Assembly (NCBI GenBank): GCA_030424715.1
Contig: JAUHWH010000002.1
Location: forward strand, 273,080-337,079
DNA length: 64,000 nucleotides
Direction: 5' to 3'
Source of the DNA: Bdellovibrionia bacterium
Lineage (GTDB): Bacteria; Bdellovibrionota; Bdellovibrionia; Bdellovibrionales; JAGQZY01
Part shown: positions 220 through 10,764 of the stretch, piece by piece
Position numbering within the stretch: position 1 is the first letter of the stretch
Layout: every line of letters starts with the position of its first letter
The notes under the pieces: model-generated
Told to the model about the DNA's origin: nothing
Databases searched by the model: none
Seen by the model: only the letters and a program-made list of their open reading frames with translations
Position numbers and translations under genes: made by a program

Positions 220-1287
220 GTGGACCCGATTTCTCAGAAAGTTATTCATATTGATATGGACTGCTTTTACGCAGCCGTCGAGATGCGTGACCGCCCTGAT
301 CTCCGAGATCGCCCCATGGCGGTTGGGGGGCGACCTGAATCTCGAGGCGTCATCACGACCTGTAACTACAAAGCTCGTGATTTTGGCGTCCATTCGGCTC
401 TTTCGTCGCGGGAGGCCTTAAGGCGCTGCCCCGATCTGGTCATTCTCCCCACTCGTTTTTCAAAATACAAAGAAGTGAGCCGGGCCATTCGTGCCATATT
501 CGATCGGTTCTCCGAGACCGTCGAGCCCATTTCTCTGGATGAGGCTTATCTCGATGTCACAAATAACCGTCAGTTCGATGGCAACGCCACCCAAACAGCG
601 CGCGCGATCCGCGCCGAGATCGAAAGCTCCTTAGGGCTCACCGCGTCCGCTGGGATTTCTAATAGTAAGTTTTTGGCAAAGATCGCAAGTGATTGGAAAA
701 AGCCCAACAACCAGTTCACCATCGCGCCGCCAGAGATCCCAGCATTTATGAAGAATCTTCCCGTGCAAAAAATACCGGGAGTCGGTAAAGCAACGCTAGC
801 GAAAATGCACAAGCTCGATATCCTTAATTGCCAAGATCTCCAGGCGTTGTCGGTTCAACAACTCACTCACCAATTTGGTGAATTTGGTATTCGGCTCTTC
901 GATCTCAGCCGAGGCATCGATCATTCAAGGGTTCGAACAGGACGAGCGCGAAAGTCTATTTCCGTTGAAACAACCTTAGCGAAAGATCTGGAACTTTGGG
1001 AAGGCATCGAAAAACACATTCACGCTCTGTTTGATGAACTCATGTTTCGTATGAAAAAATCAAAAGTAGATCCAGAATCCATAAAGTCGATTGGGGTCAA
1101 ATTTAAATCCAGTGAATTTCAGGTCACATCAAAGGAAAGTGCCCGGCCTTGTGACAAAGACAACTTTGTTAAGCTGGCGAAACAACACTTTTTTGATAGC
1201 AATATCTCCGTTCGACTGATTGGCATCGGCTGCAAGCTCAACGTCAAAGAGCCGCAAAAGTCGCGTCATCAGCTACGATTGTTTTAA
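220..1287 (+). CDS. dinB: DNA polymerase IV (Y-family translesion polymerase)
   Basis: Error-prone translesion DNA polymerase of 355 residues, normal length for DinB. The N-terminal catalytic motif HIDMDCFYAAVE carries D12, and SLDEAYLD carries D107 and E108; these are the expected metal-binding acids. A helix-hairpin-helix (IPGVGKATLAK, about residue 187) and the little-finger domain follow. The protein ends in QLRLF, a good match to the clamp-binding pentapeptide, so it should dock on the replicative sliding clamp. The GTG at 220 is the only plausible start, because an ATG at 199 runs into TGA after five codons; no strong ribosome binding site is visible. The 3' end overlaps the convergent pdxJ by 15 bases. 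No SOS operator was recognised upstream. Confidence 0.96.
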   Translation: MDPISQKVIHIDMDCFYAAVEMRDRPDLRDRPMAVGGRPESRGVITTCNYKARDFGVHSALSSREALRRCPDLVILPTRFSKYKEVSRAIRAIFDRFSETVEPISLDEAYLDVTNNRQFDGNATQTARAIRAEIESSLGLTASAGISNSKFLAKIASDWKKPNNQFTIAPPEIPAFMKNLPVQKIPGVGKATLAKMHKLDILNCQDLQALSVQQLTHQFGEFGIRLFDLSRGIDHSRVRTGRARKSISVETTLAKDLELWEGIEKHIHALFDELMFRMKKSKVDPESIKSIGVKFKSSEFQVTSKESARPCDKDNFVKLAKQHFFDSNISVRLIGIGCKLNVKEPQKSRHQLRLF

Positions 1288-2004
1288 ACAATCTAAATAC
1301 AAGGCGATGGTCTTTTCCCACCCGTAATGAAGAGCGTCGCAAACCAGGGCGTGACCAATCGACACTTCTTTAAGCTCCGGAATATTTTCTGCAAAATGGG
1401 CCAAATTATCCAGATTCAGGTCGTGACCGGCATTCACACCCAGTCCCATCGAGTGGGCGAGCTGAGCGCAATTTTGAAACACGCTCAAAACCTCAGCCAC
1501 CGTCTCTTCGGCATGGGCGACTGCGTAGGACTCTGTGTACATTTCAATACGATCAGCTCCCATATCTCTCAACGCGAGTAGTTCTTTGGTGTTGATTTCG
1601 TGGGGGTCTACAAATAGTGAAACTCGAATGCCCGCGCCCTTTAAGCGAGAGATTGTCGACGCCAGAAACTCCTCGTTACCAAAAACCTTCCAGCCCGCAT
1701 TCGAAGTGAGCACGTCGGGAGGGTCCGGTACAAGAGTGCACTGCCGGGGTTCAATCTCGCAGACTTTTTCAAGAAACTCGTCACTGGGGAAACCCTCAAT
1801 GTTGAGTTCCACAGAGATGTTATCTTTAAGCTCCAAGACGTCAGGCCACCGTATATGACGGCCATCCGGACGAGGGTGAACCGTGATTCCCTGGGCGCCG
1901 AAGCTTATGATTTTAAGAGACTCTTGCAGGACGTTGGGCCGGTCTCCGCCTCGGGCATTGCGCAGAGTTGCTACTTTATTAACGTTAACACTTAAAATGG
2001 ACAC
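1273..2004 (-). CDS. pdxJ: Pyridoxine 5'-phosphate synthase
   Basis: Cytoplasmic TIM-barrel enzyme that condenses 1-deoxy-D-xylulose 5-phosphate with 3-amino-1-hydroxyacetone phosphate in the last ring-forming step of the DXP-dependent vitamin B6 pathway. The 243-residue length is typical. Recognisable family blocks are the N-terminal VNVNKVATLRNARGG, the phosphate/substrate segment ITVHPRPDGRHI, VELNIEG, and the C-terminal NAGHDLNLDNL and SIGHALVCDAL. The start is a GTG (2004-2002) without a clear Shine-Dalgarno sequence. It is convergent with dinB and stands alone, with a 74-base spacer from the divergent signalling gene at 2079. Confidence 0.96.
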   Translation of the reverse strand: MSILSVNVNKVATLRNARGGDRPNVLQESLKIISFGAQGITVHPRPDGRHIRWPDVLELKDNISVELNIEGFPSDEFLEKVCEIEPRQCTLVPDPPDVLTSNAGWKVFGNEEFLASTISRLKGAGIRVSLFVDPHEINTKELLALRDMGADRIEMYTESYAVAHAEETVAEVLSVFQNCAQLAHSMGLGVNAGHDLNLDNLAHFAENIPELKEVSIGHALVCDALHYGWEKTIALYLDCLKQS

Positions 2005-2078: not shown

Positions 2079-5000
2079 ATGGAGCTGGCTGAAAAAAGAG
2101 CTCATTTTAGGGAAAACTCTTCACCTTTTTTGACCCCACTGCGAGTGATCTTAGTGGAACCAAAAGGTCAGCGCACTCCTGTAGAAATTATCAACTACCA
2201 TTTCAAAGGTGCTTGTTTTAAAACCACCGAAGGAAACTTAGACGCTCTCAACGAATCCAACACCCTGAAATTCTACATCGGAAATAAAGAGATACCAGAA
2301 AAGATCACTCACCGTATTGTGTGGGAAACCGTAGAAAAAAACGGGATGTTCGGCGTCGAGTTCACCGGCCTCTCCGCTTTTCACCTCGAGCGGGCCTCTC
2401 GATTCGACAGTCACAAAATAAACGTGCCCGTGCTTCACTGTAAGGACCCGCTGGACCCCAATCGAGTGATTTACTTCAAGGTGAGAAATCTCTCGAAGAC
2501 AGGTCTGCGCCTTAGCACATCGCTCACCAACAAGCACATCTTTCCAGGAATGGAGCTGATAGACGCCAATCTCACCATCCCTGGGGTTGGAGAAACCAGA
2601 CTCAACCTTTACATCGAAAATTGCAAAACCGAAAAAGACTCTATGGAAGCAGAGTACGGTGTTTCCATTCACAACCCATCCAATGAGTTTCTAGAATTGG
2701 CGGCCCACTACGTCTCCAATCTGGCAACCATCAAAAAAAATGAAAAAAGACTAGAGACTCTTGAATCCGCGCAGATGCTGAGCAAAAAACTAAGTGCCCA
2801 TCTCACAATTCAAATTATCGATTCTCCAGAAGAATATGAGAAAGTTTTGAAACTGCGGTTTTTAGGCTATCGAAAAGCCAAAAAAACCAGCTCTGATATG
2901 ACCTTTCGAGATATGGGAGAGGGCCTTAAGACTGAAGGCTTTGTGTTGGCCGCCTATCTCGCCGGCGAATTGGTGGCCAGTTGCGAATTTAGAATGAGCA
3001 AATTTCACGAACTGGTTTTAAGTAAAAAGCTTGATTTGTCGGCCTTCCCACAAGTGAATACCGATCACCTTTCAGAAATCAACAAGCTGGTTGTTCATCC
3101 AAAAGCCAAGGGTACTGACATTGTTCTCGGGATTTTTCAGAAAATCCATTCCATAGCGATTATCAACGGAACACCCGATGGCATTATTCTGTCTGAACCG
3201 AAATTGGTCTCCCTCTACGAAAGACTTGGCTTTCATAAGCTGAACTTCCAAATGGATCACCCTAAAAAGAAAAACATGAAGCTGGAGCTGATGCTCATTA
3301 AAGGGCAAGCCTATTCAGACTCCACTGGAATGAATCCTTACGCCTGGTCGGTGGCGTTTGAACTGAGCCATCAGTTCTTCTCAAATATTGGAGTTCAAAC
3401 CCAGGTCAATTTTAATATCAAACAACGCCTTGTAAAATCACTAACAAAGCATTATCTCAACTTCTCAAAACGCCGTAAAAAAGTTGACAAAACTCCGCTG
3501 AAAGCCTCCCCCAAAACCAAGAGCCAGCAACACAGCCGGGACGTCAGTGACCCCAGGTGGACGAAACAGCACATCAATGCCACTGTGTTTCTACCCTACA
3601 TCCTCGAATCAGAAGTCCTGATCGGCGTCAACAAGACTAACGAAATCCTGAATCATTTCGGTTTCGAAAAAAGCTACTTTAAAAAGTTAAGCAACTGGGT
3701 AAGCATTGACTTTTTCGATGGTTTTCTTGAAGCCTTCACAAAACTGGGTGACCCCTACACCCTGAATCGAAACGCAGGATACCGGGCCACCAGCAAAGAG
3801 ATTCTCGGTGCAAACTACTTTATAATGAAGCACTTTTTCTCTCCTCGTGTGGCCTTTAAAGCTTTTGAGCGATATTTACCCAAATTCAATAAGACGCGAG
3901 TCTATAAAGTCACGGAATCTGGTCTTAACCACTGCCGAATCACAATATCGAATCTTGATCGGTCGTTGATCCCAAAAAGTCACTCCACCCGAGAAAACTG
4001 GATCGCCCTACTGGACGCCTACGTGCGAGTTCTAACGGGCAAACCTGCGAAGATTGAAGTGATTCGATCGACTTTTGACGGCGACTCTCACTGTGAGTAC
4101 TTGGTGCGCTGGAAGACGCCTTTTTTTAAAAACCGGCTTTTTATACTCGCTGCCTTCTTGGTCAGTTTCTTCGTGTTTAGGGAAGACATTCTTCGGTTCC
4201 TTAACATTAAAATGTCCATTGAGACCATCGCGATTGCTGTTTCCTGTACTATTTTTACCTTGTCTTTTACGGCGTGGGTCCGGACCAAAAGAAAGTACCA
4301 GGACATCTTAGAGTCCATGCACGATTTCGAGCAAAATGCAGACATAAAATATCGGGAGCTTCAAGCGTCAAAACATATCCTAGAAAAAAACTACCAGGAA
4401 GGACGCCTGCTTGACTCGATCAACCGCAAGATTCAAACCGCCGAGGATCTCAGCGAGACCCTGCAAGTCGCACTCGAGAGTATCTGCAGTAACTTTGGCT
4501 TTAAGCGAGCCTTTATTATGATTATTGATGAAGAATCACAGGTCCTAAGAACAGCCGCGGTGCAAGGAGCACAAGACACCGTTACTGACTTGTGGCGCTT
4601 TCAAGTCGATGTCTCCAGTCGGCGAGACAACCCGGCCCTCCTCTCTTCGGTGTTTCACACCGGTCAATCAGTGGTCATCAATGATATCGCGAACCATCTT
4701 TTCCATCTGAACGAAACTTCACGCATTCTTATCAAAAAGCTCAATGTGACGGGGTTCTCAATGGTGCCGATTCCTTCTGAGAGTAAGAGTTGGGGTGTGC
4801 TTGTTGCCGACAAAGGCGATTCAAAAGAAGAAATCACCAGAAGAGAGCTGGTCTCGATGAAGCGAATTTCGCAATCCATCGGCCTGGCTCTCGACAAAAA
4901 GTCGAAGTTGGATTCTGAAATCACCACACGGAAAATATTTCAAAAGTATGTTCCCGCTTGGTTGGTCGACGAAACTTTAAAAAACAGAGAGCCAGAGCTT

Positions 5001-5579
5001 GGTGGTAAAACCAAACAAGCCATATGCCTCTTTTTAGATATACGAAATTTTACATATATCTCATCAGTCTTGCCTCCCGAGGTGCTCGTGGAAATGCTTA
5101 ATGATGTGTACCACAGTCTGCAAGAGACGGTCTCCGAGCACAAAGGAGTGATCGATAAATTTCTTGGTGACGGCGCTCTGGTCACCTGGGGTGTTTACCC
5201 CTGGTCTCCAATGGATGCGGACCTGGCTCTTGGCGCGGTCTTCGCTTTTCTTGAAAATCTCGAAGAACTCAACAAAAAGTTGCAACCGAAAGGGATTCCT
5301 CGGATCGAAGTGGGCGTTGGAATTCACAAGGGCCCAGTTATCGCCGGAAACATTGGTTCGAGCGAGCGTATGGAATTCACCGTTATTGGGTCGACCGTCA
5401 ATATGGCAGCTCGCCTGGAACAATTGACCAAAAAGTTTGACGCTCATATTGTGGTCTCTGAAGATGTTATTGATTTCGAGACCTTGTCGAAAGACTGGAC
5501 CGTGCATAAGAAGATTCAAATTCGTGGTATCGTCGAAAAACAAGACGTCGCCTGTCTCACGCATAAAAAGGGAGCTTAA
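2079..5579 (+). CDS. PilZ-PilZ / N-acyltransferase / V4R-like / TM / GAF / adenylate cyclase fusion protein
   Basis: A 1166-residue multidomain protein. Residues 1-100 look like a PilZ domain (RAHFR fits RxxxR, then a degenerate NYHFKG). Residues 105-210 look like a second PilZ (RNLSKTG fits NxSxxG). Residues 240-405 resemble the FeeM-type N-acyl amino acid synthase branch of the GNAT fold (LKLRFLGYRKA, SEINKLVVHPKAKG, SLYERLGF). Residues 500-690 resemble a V4R-type ligand domain ending GDSHCEYLVRW. Two membrane segments (about 686-705 and 713-734) and a short coiled coil lead to a GAF domain (about 785-940). Residues 980-1150 form a class III cyclase with metal aspartates D987 and D1031, K1027 and T1101 for the base, and N1108/R1112, so it should be active. 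The domain calls are from motifs by eye; the cyclase is the surest. It is probably an inner-membrane hub reading c-di-GMP and other ligands. The ATG at 2079 has no clear ribosome site. Confidence 0.85.
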   Translation: MELAEKRAHFRENSSPFLTPLRVILVEPKGQRTPVEIINYHFKGACFKTTEGNLDALNESNTLKFYIGNKEIPEKITHRIVWETVEKNGMFGVEFTGLSAFHLERASRFDSHKINVPVLHCKDPLDPNRVIYFKVRNLSKTGLRLSTSLTNKHIFPGMELIDANLTIPGVGETRLNLYIENCKTEKDSMEAEYGVSIHNPSNEFLELAAHYVSNLATIKKNEKRLETLESAQMLSKKLSAHLTIQIIDSPEEYEKVLKLRFLGYRKAKKTSSDMTFRDMGEGLKTEGFVLAAYLAGELVASCEFRMSKFHELVLSKKLDLSAFPQVNTDHLSEINKLVVHPKAKGTDIVLGIFQKIHSIAIINGTPDGIILSEPKLVSLYERLGFHKLNFQMDHPKKKNMKLELMLIKGQAYSDSTGMNPYAWSVAFELSHQFFSNIGVQTQVNFNIKQRLVKSLTKHYLNFSKRRKKVDKTPLKASPKTKSQQHSRDVSDPRWTKQHINATVFLPYILESEVLIGVNKTNEILNHFGFEKSYFKKLSNWVSIDFFDGFLEAFTKLGDPYTLNRNAGYRATSKEILGANYFIMKHFFSPRVAFKAFERYLPKFNKTRVYKVTESGLNHCRITISNLDRSLIPKSHSTRENWIALLDAYVRVLTGKPAKIEVIRSTFDGDSHCEYLVRWKTPFFKNRLFILAAFLVSFFVFREDILRFLNIKMSIETIAIAVSCTIFTLSFTAWVRTKRKYQDILESMHDFEQNADIKYRELQASKHILEKNYQEGRLLDSINRKIQTAEDLSETLQVALESICSNFGFKRAFIMIIDEESQVLRTAAVQGAQDTVTDLWRFQVDVSSRRDNPALLSSVFHTGQSVVINDIANHLFHLNETSRILIKKLNVTGFSMVPIPSESKSWGVLVADKGDSKEEITRRELVSMKRISQSIGLALDKKSKLDSEITTRKIFQKYVPAWLVDETLKNREPELGGKTKQAICLFLDIRNFTYISSVLPPEVLVEMLNDVYHSLQETVSEHKGVIDKFLGDGALVTWGVYPWSPMDADLALGAVFAFLENLEELNKKLQPKGIPRIEVGVGIHKGPVIAGNIGSSERMEFTVIGSTVNMAARLEQLTKKFDAHIVVSEDVIDFETLSKDWTVHKKIQIRGIVEKQDVACLTHKKGA

Positions 5580-5580
5580 T

Positions 5581-6222
5581 GTGGAGCAAGTTAAAGAAAA
5601 AATTAGCAAGGCTCAATTGCTTTTTAAAGAGAGAATGATCGCTATTCAGGAACAAGGGGGGCTCACGCGCGAGCGATATATCCGTTTTTTAACGTGCCAG
5701 TACCATTTAACGAAAGGTGTTCAAAGGCATTTCTACAGAATTGCCGCTCACTCTTCGTTGGCTCGCAAAAAACCATTACGGGATTGGTTGGTGCAATTTG
5801 CTCGAGAAGAAGAATTCCATTTTGATATCGCTAAAAAAGATTTAGAGCAGCTCGACAGCCAACCTTTGGAGTGCCCTTTTGATGTAGCCCTCTGGTGGCT
5901 TTATTTTGATTCCGTTGTTGATGAGAGGCCCTACATTCGGCTCGGGGGAACCTGTATCCTCGAGAACATCAGTAACACCAGTTCAGAAGTCATCGATCAA
6001 TCACTGGCAACCAGTGATTTTTTAACAGCACAAAACACTCGTTTTTTGACCATCCACCGTCACGGCCCGAACCTCGATCACGGCAATGAGATCATCAACA
6101 ATCTCGAAGCCAGCCAGCCCGACGAAGACGAATTGCGAGACCTGGAGCTTGGCTGTGAGTATGCCACCAGTTTCTATCTGCGATTTATGAGCTGGATGAT
6201 GACGGGCGAGATAAGTAAATAA
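5581..6222 (+). CDS. Heme-oxygenase-like (TENA/iron-containing redox enzyme type) protein
   Basis: Predicted all-helical 213-residue protein. The start is GTG at 5581, one base after the stop of the upstream cyclase fusion, with GGGAGC just inside that gene, so translation is probably coupled. Helices with RERYIRFLTCQYHL, REEEFHFDI (ExxH) and IHRHGPNLDHGNE are the pattern of heme-oxygenase-like oxidases, which bind a diiron centre with carboxylates and histidines. Known relatives oxidise or cleave amino-acid, fatty-acid or pterin-type substrates. The histidine/aspartate spacing in the last motif is not the textbook HxxxDxxH, so metal binding is uncertain. Coupling to an acyltransferase-cyclase suggests it modifies a ligand or product of that protein; this is inference. 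Its last 38 bases overlap the convergent ATPase gene. Confidence 0.75.
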   Translation: MEQVKEKISKAQLLFKERMIAIQEQGGLTRERYIRFLTCQYHLTKGVQRHFYRIAAHSSLARKKPLRDWLVQFAREEEFHFDIAKKDLEQLDSQPLECPFDVALWWLYFDSVVDERPYIRLGGTCILENISNTSSEVIDQSLATSDFLTAQNTRFLTIHRHGPNLDHGNEIINNLEASQPDEDELRDLELGCEYATSFYLRFMSWMMTGEISK

Positions 6223-6826
6223 TTCGGTCTGAAAACAGCTCCGACTCTTCGCGAGAGTGGGTCACCATCAATGCGGTGATTTGGAGCTGACTGAACAGCT
6301 CTTTGATCTCACCAATTAAGAACTGGGTCTGCTTTGGATCGATGCTGGAAAAGGGTTCATCCATAAGGACGATGTCGGGCTTTAAAGCCAGACAACGGGC
6401 CAACGCCACCTTCTGCCTCTCTCCACCACTCAATTGATAAGGGTGCTTGTCGAGGTGGTCTGAAAGTCCCATGGCCCCACAGAGGCGTTCCGCTTCGTCA
6501 TAGTGAGCCCGCGTCTTACAAGCATAAAAAATGTTTTTCTTCACGCTGACTCTTTCAAACAAGGCGAAGTTTTGGAAAACATAACCCAAGCGTCGATTCC
6601 CCGGAGGGACTTGTTTTCCTTGACCAGAAACCAATTGCTCACGCAGAAAAATCTCGCCAGAGTCCGGCGCCTCTAAGCCCGCGAGCAACCGAAGGAGACT
6701 GGTTTTTCCGCAGCCGCTTTCACCCAGCAAACTGACTTTTTCGCCTCTCTCCAGTTGACAAGAAAAGTTTGAGAGCACGGTGTTGGATCCCCGGGAGAAA
6801 CTCAGGTGACGGCACTCAAGAATCAT
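6185..6826 (-). CDS. fbpC: ABC transporter ATP-binding protein, probably ferric iron uptake
   Basis: Cytoplasmic ATPase subunit of 213 residues. Walker A is GESGCGKTS, the Q-loop region VFQNFALFE is clear, the signature is LSGGERQKVALARC, and Walker B plus catalytic Glu is VLMDEPFSS. An H-loop histidine sits in MVTHSREE. It is shorter than classical FbpC and lacks the C-terminal regulatory domain, which is more like ThiQ. The iron assignment rests on the substrate-binding gene at the head of the operon. Its start overlaps the permease 3' end by 11 bases, and it is the last gene of the operon. Confidence 0.9.
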   Translation of the reverse strand: MILECRHLSFSRGSNTVLSNFSCQLERGEKVSLLGESGCGKTSLLRLLAGLEAPDSGEIFLREQLVSGQGKQVPPGNRRLGYVFQNFALFERVSVKKNIFYACKTRAHYDEAERLCGAMGLSDHLDKHPYQLSGGERQKVALARCLALKPDIVLMDEPFSSIDPKQTQFLIGEIKELFSQLQITALMVTHSREESELFSDRIIYLSRPSSSSS

Positions 6827-8354
6827 AACCAGCCTCTGCGTCTTTGAGATTGATTAGCGCGACAGAAGTCATACCAATCAAAACCAGCATAAGACCTGGC
6901 AATGAGGCCTTCTCCCACTCCCCCTCTGATGTGAAATTAAAGATTTGAATGGAGAGAGTTTGAAACCCACCCGGGGCTAACATAAGAGTTAAGGGCATTT
7001 CTTTCATAACCTCGATCATCACTAAAAGTGTCGCCACACCACAGGAAGACCGGAGGTAGGGAAAAAGAAACAACCGAATACGGCGCCACCAAGGCACTTG
7101 AAAAACATCCGAAATTTCAAAGAGCTCTTTTGGCAAAAATTGCACGGCGTCACTCAAGGGCCTCATCGCTGCGGTCAAAAACTTGTGGGACAAGGCCAGA
7201 ACAAGGCCCACCAGCAAAACCGTCTCGGTGACGTTGGAAACCAGGGCCAGTAGAACCGCGTAGACTGCCACGGCCAGAATGCTTCCCGGAAGACTGTAAC
7301 CCACCGTTGAAAAGACAACCCACAGACGTGGGTTTTGGCGAGTTTGCCGCAACCAAACCAAGAGAGTCACCGAAAAGCCCACCACAAGAATTCCAACCAC
7401 AGCTCCCAAAGCCATGGTTTTTATGGCGAGGGCTGCTGCTTTTACCCATAGTTGGAAACTCTGGAGTTGCACCACCCAAAACAGGATCTGCAAGCAGGGA
7501 TAGACAAAAGCCAGAAGGATATAGAAGAAAAGCAAACACAGTAGCGCTTTCATAGAAAAGGGTAAGGACGACTGAGGGCGCAAGGGATCTCGCCCCGAGC
7601 TCACCGGCTCTCGCGAAAACGTTTTAAAGAGAAACTCTATGACCAAAAATAATAAAATCACCCCCGAGTACTTCAGCGAGATCTGTACGGCCCCCGCAAA
7701 AGAGAACAGATCAAACCACATTTTATAAATCATAGTCGTCATCACCGGCACATTGACAATAGAGGCCGCACCAAAATCAGATAAAGTTTCAAACATCACT
7801 AATATTTGAGCCGAAATCAAGAAAGGCAACAAGCGAGGCCAAGTGCTGTATCGGAAAAATAGCCAACGTCCCCCCTGCAAAAGAGATTCTGTTTCTCGCT
7901 CACTTTGCGTCATGCTTTGCAGACCAAGACTGGAGAAGTAGTAGACATAGGGAGTCAGGGCTAAGCTGAGGACAAAAACAAGAAACCAAACCGCGCCTTG
8001 AATCTCGAAAAAAGCCGACCATTCGGTCGCGGGGCCGAAAGCACCTAGATAAATAAAAGCCAAAACATAGGCCGGAAAAGCCAGAGGCATCAACAAGAGG
8101 CCGTGTAATATTCTCTTGTAGGGGTATTCATAAAAAGTGTGAAACAGGGCAAAGGCAACCCCCAAGAGGCTCGAAGACAACACCACACCCATTCCAAGCA
8201 AGAGAGTGTTTCGTTGGGCTAACGAAAACAAATCGGCACTAATAGGCTCAGCCTCATCAGCTAAAAAAAATAGCGCAATGAGGGGCAAAAGAAGAATGAA
8301 GCCAAACACTGCCACCCATCCCCCCCTCGAGTTTCCTTTCCGATAGCCAGTCAT
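6816..8354 (-). CDS. fbpB: Iron(III) ABC transporter permease, two fused halves
   Basis: A 512-residue inner-membrane protein with about twelve hydrophobic segments in two similar halves, the usual layout of FbpB/ThiP-type permeases. Each half has an EAA-like cytoplasmic loop that docks on the ATPase: LLQGGRWLFFRYSTWPRLLP in the first half and FEISDVFQVPWWRR in the second. The start codon overlaps the stop of the binding-protein gene by one base (TAATG), a sign of translational coupling. It would pass ferric ion from the periplasmic binding protein into the cytoplasm. Confidence 0.9.
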   Translation of the reverse strand: MTGYRKGNSRGGWVAVFGFILLLPLIALFFLADEAEPISADLFSLAQRNTLLLGMGVVLSSSLLGVAFALFHTFYEYPYKRILHGLLLMPLAFPAYVLAFIYLGAFGPATEWSAFFEIQGAVWFLVFVLSLALTPYVYYFSSLGLQSMTQSERETESLLQGGRWLFFRYSTWPRLLPFLISAQILVMFETLSDFGAASIVNVPVMTTMIYKMWFDLFSFAGAVQISLKYSGVILLFLVIEFLFKTFSREPVSSGRDPLRPQSSLPFSMKALLCLLFFYILLAFVYPCLQILFWVVQLQSFQLWVKAAALAIKTMALGAVVGILVVGFSVTLLVWLRQTRQNPRLWVVFSTVGYSLPGSILAVAVYAVLLALVSNVTETVLLVGLVLALSHKFLTAAMRPLSDAVQFLPKELFEISDVFQVPWWRRIRLFLFPYLRSSCGVATLLVMIEVMKEMPLTLMLAPGGFQTLSIQIFNFTSEGEWEKASLPGLMLVLIGMTSVALINLKDAEAGYDS

Positions 8355-9349
8355 TAGCGGTATTTAACAGAGTCCATGAGAAACACGGCCTTTTTTTGTA
8401 AAGCCCCTATTTCGGTCAAGGAAACATCTTCGCGCGAAAAGGCGCCCCATTTTTTTATCGTCTCCGAAGGGGCCACACCTTCGACAACGGGATACTCATC
8501 ATTGAGTCCTGCAAAAATCGCTTGAGCTTCTTTGGTGACTAACCACTCAAGAAAAGCAACAGCTTGCTTTTTGTGAGCGCTGGATTTTATCACTCCAGCA
8601 CCCGACACATTAACATGCACGCCACCATCCGATTGTTTGGGCCAAAAGACACCCACGTTTGAAGCGTCACCTTTTTTAATCATTCGCGCCAAGTAGTAAG
8701 TATTGGCAATACCCACCTGACAAATTCCATTATCAATCGCCTCGAGCAACTGAGAGTCACTGGTGAAAACCGGCTTTGTAAGATTGTTGACCCAGCCCTC
8801 TACAATTTTTTTGGTGCGGTCCTCTCCTAAGCGAGAAATCAAAGCCGCCACCAACGACTGGTTGTAGACCTTGCGACTGGTTCGCAGGCACAGTCGCCCC
8901 CTCCACTTTTCATCAGCCAATCCCTGGTAGCTGGCTAGCTCTTCTTTTTTTACCTTCTGCTTGTTGTAAAAAATAGTACGAGCTCGCAGGGAAAGCCCCA
9001 CCCACAGGTTGTTGGTGCCACGATCCTTTTTGGAGATACTCTGCAAAAGACTTTTTGACGCCAAGGGCTCTAATAAGCCCATTTTCGCCGCTTGCCCGAG
9101 ATTACCAGCATCCACTGTGATCAAAACATCGGCCTTGGTTTTTGCGCCCTCTTGTTTAATCTTTTGGATCAACACGCCGGCTTTTCCGTTGATATGCTTG
9201 ATGGAAACGCCAGTTTTCTTGGAGTAAGCCTCAAAAAGAGGTTCGATAAGGTGAGTCTTTCTGGAGGTGTAGACCGTCAGCTCCGGGGAAGACTCAGCAA
9301 AAGCAGAAACGACAATAAAAAGCGACAGAATCAACGACAGTAAGGGCAT
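8354..9349 (-). CDS. fbpA: Periplasmic iron(III)-binding protein of ABC transporter
   Basis: Periplasmic solute-binding protein of 331 residues and first gene of a three-gene transporter operon. The start at 9349 is chosen because AAGGAG stands just upstream and the protein then begins with a clean signal peptide (MPLLSLILSLFIVVSAFA). An upstream GTG/ATG at 9403 would bury that signal. The mature part begins ELTVYTSRK, as in FbpA/FutA proteins. The family's twin tyrosines that ligate ferric iron are present in NTYYLAR (about residues 218-219). LCLRTSRKVYNQSLVAA is also family-typical. No convincing Fur box was found in 9350-9525. Confidence 0.92.
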   Translation of the reverse strand: MPLLSLILSLFIVVSAFAESSPELTVYTSRKTHLIEPLFEAYSKKTGVSIKHINGKAGVLIQKIKQEGAKTKADVLITVDAGNLGQAAKMGLLEPLASKSLLQSISKKDRGTNNLWVGLSLRARTIFYNKQKVKKEELASYQGLADEKWRGRLCLRTSRKVYNQSLVAALISRLGEDRTKKIVEGWVNNLTKPVFTSDSQLLEAIDNGICQVGIANTYYLARMIKKGDASNVGVFWPKQSDGGVHVNVSGAGVIKSSAHKKQAVAFLEWLVTKEAQAIFAGLNDEYPVVEGVAPSETIKKWGAFSREDVSLTEIGALQKKAVFLMDSVKYR

Positions 9350-9525
9350 GGGCTCTCTCCTTGAAGGACTCTCACCTATAGACAATGGTGACAGAGCCCT
9401 CAAGGAGAATTCCCGGGGGGGCCAAATATCAAGTGACCAGTATCATTTCTTGTTCAATTGGTGGACTCAAACCTCGAAAAAGTATATAACTTAGGCCACT
9501 TAACACGTGTTTCCAGGGGTTTTTC

Positions 9526-10764
9526 ATGAAATTACAACCGGTCCGTGGCACCCGCGATATCTATGGCGACGAGGCCCGCCTTTTTAGAGAAATCGATCAG
9601 CATTTTGCAAAAACTGCTTCCCTTTTCGACTTTCAAGAAATCGAAACACCCATCTTTGAATTCACCAGTGTGTTCCAGAGAACTTTGGGCGAGGGCTCAG
9701 ACATCGTCAATAAAGAGATGTACACCTTCGAAGACCGTAGTGGAGACTCTCTAACCCTAAGACCCGAGGGCACTGCGAGCGTGGCTCGTGCTGTAATTTC
9801 AAACTCCATGCTGCGTGATTTGCCTTTAAAACTTTTTTATTCAGGACCGATGTTTCGCCACGAACGCCCCCAAAAGGGTCGCTATCGACAGTTCACCCAA
9901 TTTGGCATTGAACTCATTGGCGTACCGACGCCGGTGGCAGACATTGAGGTGCTTGCCTGCGCCTGGATGTTTTTTAAAAATTGTCAGCTTTCCGATAAAG
10001 TGCAGCTTGAGCTCAATACGATAGGAGACGCCGACAGCCGAGATCAGTACAGAAGCAGACTGGTCAGCCATTTTGAGAAGTTTTCTAAAGATCTTTCCGA
10101 AGACAGTCAGGTTCGTTTAAAATCCAACCCCCTTCGAATACTGGATTCCAAAGATCCTAAAGATCAGGCTCTGATTGCCGACGCGCCGCTATTTTCCGAT
10201 TCCCTGAACCCAGCCTCGCAACAGTTTTTTGATCAGGTGGTTGAGGGCCTTAACCAACTGAATATTCCCTTTCAACTCAATTCTAAATTGGTGCGTGGTT
10301 TGGATTACTACTGTCACACCGTTTTTGAGTTCACAACCACTCATCTCGGTTCTCAAAATGCGGTTTTGTCGGGCGGGCGTTACAACGATCTAATAGAATC
10401 CATGGGCGGACCGAGCACTCCAGGAGTTGGCTGGGCGGCCGGCACCGATCGCCTGGCTCTTCTCTTAGAAAAACCCAGAACCCATCATCAGAATGTGGCG
10501 GTGATTGCCGCTGTTGCTGAGGCCGAGCCTCTCTTATTACCTCTGGTCAGTGAGCTGCGCGACAATAACATCGCCAGTCAGCTGATTTATTCTGGAAATA
10601 TGTCAAAGCAGTTAAAGAAGGCCAACAAGCGTAACTGCAGTCATGCCATACTGATTGGTGAAGATGAAATTCAATCGGGGCAATACCAGTTGAAGCATTT
10701 CGCTGATGGCAGCCAGATATCGGTTTCCAAGCAAGAACTTCTTAGAAAGCTTAAAGAACTCTAA
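9526..10764 (+). CDS. hisS: Histidine--tRNA ligase
   Basis: Class II aminoacyl-tRNA synthetase of 412 residues that charges tRNA-His in the cytoplasm. Motif 2 is FRHERPQKGR (110-119), and the histidine-specific loop LVRGLDYY is near residue 260. Motif 3 GWAAGTDRLALLLE and GGRYNDL are present, followed by an anticodon-binding domain with the typical ending (ISVSKQELLRKLK). The ATG at 9526 has CAGGGG upstream. The maf gene overlaps its stop by one base (TAATG), so the two are co-translated. Confidence 0.97.
   Translation: MKLQPVRGTRDIYGDEARLFREIDQHFAKTASLFDFQEIETPIFEFTSVFQRTLGEGSDIVNKEMYTFEDRSGDSLTLRPEGTASVARAVISNSMLRDLPLKLFYSGPMFRHERPQKGRYRQFTQFGIELIGVPTPVADIEVLACAWMFFKNCQLSDKVQLELNTIGDADSRDQYRSRLVSHFEKFSKDLSEDSQVRLKSNPLRILDSKDPKDQALIADAPLFSDSLNPASQQFFDQVVEGLNQLNIPFQLNSKLVRGLDYYCHTVFEFTTTHLGSQNAVLSGGRYNDLIESMGGPSTPGVGWAAGTDRLALLLEKPRTHHQNVAVIAAVAEAEPLLLPLVSELRDNNIASQLIYSGNMSKQLKKANKRNCSHAILIGEDEIQSGQYQLKHFADGSQISVSKQELLRKLKEL

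Follow-up and report, generated by a model that had tools for sequence, protein, structure and literature searches.

The gene at positions 2079-5579 (+) of a 64,000-nucleotide stretch from a Bdellovibrionia bacterium (contig JAUHWH010000002.1, positions 273,080 to 337,079; the whole stretch is called the window here) encodes a single protein in which two PilZ domains, a FeeM-like acyltransferase, a putative ligand-binding domain, two membrane helices, a coiled coil, a GAF domain and a class III nucleotide cyclase are joined. Since six further genomes encode the protein at full length, the fusion goes beyond chance, and we regard it as a recurrent signalling module that is apparently undescribed. 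The features discussed below are listed with coordinates in the window and strand.

2079..5579, +, whole fused gene, PilZ-PilZ-FeeM-V4R/H-NOX-like-two membrane helices-coiled coil-GAF-class III cyclase, 1166 residues (open reading frame, Pfam, six full-length homologues)
2091..2378, +, PilZ domain 1, residues 5-100, with R7xxxR11 and N39YHFKG44 (Pfam, motif table, fold match)
2388..2726, +, PilZ-like domain 2, about residues 104-216, with E104RASR108 and N137LSKTG142 (second PilZ stretch, tandem-PilZ fold matches, motif table)
2790..3314, +, FeeM-like N-acyl amino acid synthase or acyl-homoserine-lactone (AHL)-synthase-type GNAT domain, residues 238-412 (Pfam, alignment, fold matches)
3546..4127, +, putative V4R/H-NOX/TRAPP-fold ligand-binding domain, residues 490-683 (AlphaFold2 model, Foldseek, VIA-align, family alignment)
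4137..4193, +, predicted membrane helix 1, residues 687-705 (hydropathy)
4224..4280, +, predicted membrane helix 2, residues 716-734 (hydropathy)
4446..4892, +, GAF domain, residues 790-938 (Pfam, E 2.6e-9)
5019..5528, +, class III nucleotide cyclase of adenylate type, residues 981-1150 (Pfam, catalytic residues)
5581..6222, +, heme-oxygenase-like gene, 213 residues, GTG start one base past the stop of the fusion (match to PDB 3dde, hhalign, ligand table, linkage)

Recurrence of the fusion

The open reading frame starts with ATG and is unbroken over its 1166 residues; the reverse-strand frame across it is interrupted by many stops. PilZ, FeeM, GAF and Guanylate_cyc are the Pfam families found over their cut-offs. 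Together with the cyclase residues and hydropathy, these data confirm the initial annotation, which had described one multi-domain protein from the sequence alone. Its calls of tandem PilZ domains, a FeeM-like acyltransferase, a V4R-like fold, GAF and an intact adenylate-type cyclase were all upheld, with residues 240-405 matching an acyltransferase profile and fold and residues 1-210 modelling as PilZ. The gene is present as a single copy in its own genome, where the sole other match is a different cyclase.

Full-length fused homologues were found in two Bdellovibrionaceae metagenome-assembled genomes, ACE_BDE5 and ACE_BDE1 (G084, G085), with 46% overall identity. Four more occur in another family of Bdellovibrionota (G174, G175, G177, G178), so that the fused form comprises the window protein and proteins from six genomes in two other families. 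In a genome of the same genus (G001) as well as in G003, G086 and G128 each half has a gene of its own, and a heme-oxygenase-like gene lies between the two on the opposite strand. Because this gene separates the halves in the same-genus locus, a lost stop codon cannot explain the fusion. The occurrence in seven genomes and the split gene order within the genus also rule out an assembly or frameshift artefact. A separate small GNAT gene that seemed to be present in G001 and G003 (truncated loci L003/L004) turned out to be the C-terminal part of the PilZ-FeeM reading frame. In G026 the same genes lie on two contigs that break at the locus; here, histidine-kinase-like and receiver-like segments are inserted between GAF and cyclase of the V4R-GAF-cyclase protein (L039:2-3352).

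The arrangement in G212 (L091), where PilZ-FeeM, V4R-cyclase and heme-oxygenase-like protein are encoded by three overlapping genes on one strand, is that expected for the state before fusion or after fission. Within the fused clade the trees built from either half are congruent, with the fused proteins together and the split G212 nested inside. This nesting requires that the halves fused twice, or fused once and came apart once. The window protein groups with those of G084 and G085 and not with that of G001, although the modules of the window and G001 both lie between pdxJ and hisS. This conflict between tree and location suggests that one module has replaced another at a common site. Different versions occupy the pdxJ-hisS interval (window 1273-2004 and 9526-10764; L033; L035): the window has the fused gene there, G001 a split V4R module and G048 a module of a second type.

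A scan of genome contigs with the window protein alone gave no relative. The same scan with three fused proteins (two short patterns) gave only the ACE_BDE genomes and a cyclase-only match, from which absence outside the phylum does not follow. Among plasmid records none covers 80% of the fused protein, and the top records align to its GAF/cyclase end.

Linkage across the phylum

Loci were gathered with the PilZ-FeeM profile only, across 369 Bdellovibrionota genomes, 34 of which contain PilZ-FeeM. A class III cyclase is fused or adjacent to it in 28 of the 33 loci with readable flanks, in a manual count that takes G026 across its contig break. Synthase and cyclase are linked in all module types. 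In the second type (L035, L036, L037, L059, L060, L062, L088, L090, L092, L094, L095) the cyclase carries a different, membrane-bearing N-terminus, which lacks a V4R domain in L035-L037. Its K..GD motif is one residue shorter than that in the window, and an ICMT-like methyltransferase gene is often found at these loci. The heme-oxygenase-like gene accompanies the V4R-GAF cyclase with its membrane helices in 15/16 loci and the second cyclase type in 0/11. It is mainly from this co-occurrence that we infer a common small molecule for the V4R sensor and the heme-oxygenase-like protein.

The genome of the window encodes five GGDEF domains and five proteins that bind cyclic nucleotides, so that cyclic di-GMP (c-di-GMP) and cyclic AMP (cAMP) are both likely in use. 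In G085 a double cyclic-nucleotide-binding protein (115 bits) follows directly after the heme-oxygenase-like gene (L058:3374-4468, -), and a comparable reading frame comes next in G084.

Domains and partner gene

PF07238 (PilZ) is matched by the window protein with 33.4 bits over the full length and 36.6 bits on residues 1-468, compared to a cut-off of 22.5 (E 6.2e-8, two stretches). The structural model of residues 1-468 is of low confidence (pLDDT 50.6), each structure prediction in this work being weak because it used just three sequences. Its fold matches comprise the tandem-PilZ proteins PP4397, MrkH and YcgR at 1e-7 to 2e-6 as well as GNAT enzymes, including FeeM (2g0b, E 1.3e-4, probability 1.00) and the AHL synthases MesI and EsaI.

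In the FeeM-like domain the positions of R260, Y264, K269 and E333 are invariant across 25 homologues, E333 being the sole invariant Glu. By its position, E333 would be equivalent to Glu95 of FeeM and to the essential Glu of Nas354, in which a Glu-to-Ala change at the matching residue abolishes activity (PMC4897644). Relatives score 31-50 bits against the FeeM family, with values of 33.9, 35.3 and 42.4 for fused homologues. As a FeeM-like synthase, the domain in the window protein would make N-acyl amino acids. A second, shorter FeeM-family protein (271-residue frame, 39.7 bits) is encoded elsewhere in the genome at G000:C8:133587-133910.

For residues 490-683 the 40 best Foldseek matches are H-NOX domains, free-standing or in soluble guanylate cyclase (best E 2.6e-6, probability 1.00), followed by palmitate-bound TRAPP Bet3 (6aq3, probability 0.99). 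VIA-align gave Z 7.8 for H-NOX and Z 4.5 for the V4R protein 2oso, a range that may also reflect a common arrangement; families missing from the Foldseek and VIA-align lists are not thereby excluded. A profile search of solved structures with this region gave nothing significant. V4R, TRAPPC3 and H-NOX have one fold in common and bind phenols, palmitate or heme (PMC10933270). The medium-confidence model suggests that residues 490-683 belong to this fold group of ligand binders. A gas-sensing H-NOX is unsupported by the motif test, as both YxSxR and an invariant proximal His are missing in all 14 homologues. With this heme signature absent, a site for a hydrophobic small molecule is likelier than one for heme.

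The two membrane segments place the large domains on the same side of the membrane, presumably in the cytoplasm. Guanylate_cyc is matched at residues 981-1150 with 72.1 bits (E 5.8e-20). The catalytic residues named in the initial annotation are all in place: D987 and D1031 for metal binding, K1027 and T1101 of the adenine type, N1108 and R1112. They are intact in every fused copy. The K1027/T1101 pair predicts ATP as substrate and cAMP as product.

The initial annotation ended the feature at 5579 and thereby omitted the coupled heme-oxygenase-like gene at 5581-6222, which lies directly downstream in 7/7 fused loci. By itself, its product matches no Pfam family significantly. It matches the solved heme-oxygenase-fold structure 3dde in a profile search (E 2.6e-8) and aligns with those partner proteins of split modules that belong to PF14518 (hhalign E 5.4e-6). 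At the metal site the window copy of this partner retains His and two Glu; the Glu of helix alpha1 is replaced by Cys and the Asp of alpha3 by Asn. The alpha1 Glu is lost in all partners of the fused clade and in G212 (window, L058:4549-5187, L084:2974-3615, L085, L086, L087, L091), and the alpha3 position is without a carboxylate in all of them except G212, whereas the His and remaining Glu ligands are retained throughout this group. Split-module partners keep the full ligand set, save one His in two of them. The partner of the fused type may hold a single metal or work in another way.

Between the module and hisS lie genes (window 6185-9403, -) that by eye resemble those for the ATPase, permease and binding protein of an iron-type ABC transporter. 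The ATPase reading frame runs into the 3' end of the heme-oxygenase-like gene, and the transporter genes are absent from the corresponding place in G001.

Proposed working and alternatives

As the main explanation, to which we assign a probability of about 0.42, the protein would be a membrane-anchored hub in which the V4R domain detects what a PilZ-tuned FeeM domain makes and so determines the output of cAMP. A cyclic dinucleotide at the PilZ pair, which we take to be c-di-GMP, would set the activity of FeeM, which in turn would join an acyl chain from an acyl carrier protein to an amine such as an amino acid. The V4R/H-NOX-fold domain in the cytoplasm would then bind this lipid-like product, which the heme-oxygenase-like protein encoded alongside may have modified. 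The signal would be relayed via the membrane helices, the coiled coil and GAF to the cyclase, which would supply cAMP to the cyclic-nucleotide-binding effectors of the cell. In this scheme the nature of the product, its role as V4R ligand and the direction of control are all presumed; what the data establish is the single chain with its domains and conserved catalytic residues, the recurrence of the fusion and the gene linkage. A complete autocrine circuit in one polypeptide, with a cyclic-dinucleotide-gated synthase whose own product is read by the V4R/H-NOX-fold receptor and converted to cAMP, appears doubtful. If true, synthase, receptor and output enzyme would be fused, though they are normally separate in quorum-type signalling.

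Several observations weigh against the hub. RxxxR and (D/N)xSxxG do not occur together within one PilZ domain of the window protein (motif table): the first domain keeps RxxxR (RAHFR), with NYHFKG replacing (D/N)xSxxG, and the second keeps NLSKTG, with ERASR replacing RxxxR. As the halves of the motif never stand together, c-di-GMP reading is insecure for the window copy. The domain reading of the initial annotation holds, whereas its c-di-GMP reading by this copy is not secure, and the connection between messengers that it proposed is putative. The complete motif is found in the second PilZ domain of the fused relatives G174, G175 and G177 and of most type-C proteins, and across the family one of the two PilZ domains has a complete or nearly complete motif in most proteins. 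On these motifs, c-di-GMP reading is plausible for the PilZ-FeeM family and uncertain for the window copy. The FeeM match (residues 286-405) reaches 27.4 bits at a cut-off of 27, the weakest Pfam call in the protein, and K336 stands where Arg is usual. Over residues 490-683 no Pfam family reaches its cut-off in 14 homologues; V4R (PF02830) appears below cut-off in one of them (E 0.1) and Arabinose_bd weakly, also below cut-off, in four. The model of this region has pLDDT 58.5 and pTM 0.55, and its Foldseek matches have TM-scores of about 0.3. The partner protein lacks the full set of three His and three carboxylates that characterizes heme-oxygenase-like dimetal oxidases (HDOs). Finally, gene linkage indicates functional association, from which it does not follow that the product of one domain is the ligand of another.

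The alternative that survives best, which we nevertheless rate as unlikely, is one of parallel outputs: PilZ would control acyl-signal synthesis, while the V4R/GAF half would sense an unrelated hydrophobic or redox ligand and make cAMP, the fusion fixing stoichiometry and location only. The second cyclase type argues for it, since a partner without V4R (L035-L037) means that the link of synthase and cyclase can do without this domain. V4R-fold proteins also bind varied ligands (PMC10933270). Unrelated ligands are, however, harder to reconcile with the joint presence and absence of V4R and the heme-oxygenase-like gene, a pattern suggestive of a ligand pathway of their own, and with the conservation of the fused form in three genera.

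Alternatively, FeeM may no longer be a synthase and instead sense acyl-ACP or acyl-amino acids, gating the cyclase together with PilZ as a coincidence detector of fatty-acid supply and c-di-GMP. The near-cut-off Pfam score and K336 would fit such a loss of activity. The invariant R260, Y264, K269 and E333-type Glu in 25 homologues speak against it, as does the Arg retained at the K336 position in the sister copy G084. The ratio of nonsynonymous to synonymous substitution (dN/dS) in FeeM is also low (0.06 between G084 and G085, with dS near saturation), a measure of little use for the domains because dS is mostly saturated. Altogether we consider this role improbable.

Two further explanations have very little probability. 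A gas or heme sensor cyclase resembling soluble guanylate cyclase, with an H-NOX for nitric oxide or O2, is suggested by the H-NOX fold matches, by the order of H-NOX fold, coiled coil, GAF and cyclase and by the heme-oxygenase-like fold of the partner; YxSxR in 0/14 homologues, the missing His and the adenylate-specifying K/T speak against it. Equally remote is control in the reverse direction, where cAMP from the cyclase would activate acyl-amino-acid synthesis: this has a reported precedent in NasP and agrees with the cyclase-synthase linkage in all module types, but the Pfam search found no cyclic-nucleotide-binding domain in the window protein, so that GAF would have to serve.

Relation to known systems and meaning

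The initial annotation knew of no protein combining an acyl-signal synthase and a cyclase under PilZ domains. An N-acyl amino acid synthase (NAS) and PilZ in one chain are known; their joining to a cyclase and a V4R-like sensor appears new. The metagenomic NAS-PilZ proteins Nas343 and Nas354 make N-acyltyrosine (PMC4897644) and share with the window protein the FeeM-type synthase, PilZ and the conserved catalytic Glu. Unlike it, they have just a NAS domain followed by a PilZ domain, without V4R, membrane helices, GAF or cyclase, and are presumed to lie outside any biosynthetic operon. NasP, an N-acyl amino acid synthase described as activated by cAMP (Clardy and Brady 2007, as cited in PMC4897644 and PMC8762209), likewise ties this synthesis to cAMP; in these citing accounts it is not reported to make cAMP, whereas the window protein contains a cyclase.

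FeeM (2g0b), EsaI and MesI have the fold and the conserved Arg, Tyr and Glu positions in common with the window protein, but FeeM and LuxI-type AHL synthases are free-standing enzymes that carry neither PilZ nor a cyclase. Soluble guanylate cyclase (H-NOX, PAS-like, coiled coil, cyclase) similarly combines an H-NOX/V4R-fold sensor, a coiled coil and a class III cyclase in one chain; the window protein differs in its lack of YxSxR and a conserved His, its adenylate-type residues, its membrane anchor and the PilZ-FeeM part in front. The partner gene shares its fold with HDOs (UndA, CADD; PF14518; PMC13108848), whose full ligand set most split-module partners keep, in contrast to the fused-type partners without alpha1 Glu and alpha3 Asp. 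A full-text literature search with partial coverage gave no paper that mentions N-acyl amino acid synthase together with adenylate cyclase, and none with V4R, adenylate cyclase and GAF. The union of NAS and cyclase thus appears undescribed, while its components and some of their pairings were already known.

Within the phylum, Bd1971 of Bdellovibrio, a cAMP-sensing c-di-GMP phosphodiesterase (PMC6717892), also joins cAMP and c-di-GMP in one protein. In contrast to the window protein it degrades c-di-GMP in response to cAMP and has neither acyltransferase nor cyclase. A conserved synthase-cyclase module, fused or split, in a phylum that includes predatory bacteria raises the direct question whether the acyl product alters cAMP. 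If the module works in this way, it would add a third messenger to the known convergence of cAMP and c-di-GMP in Bdellovibrio.

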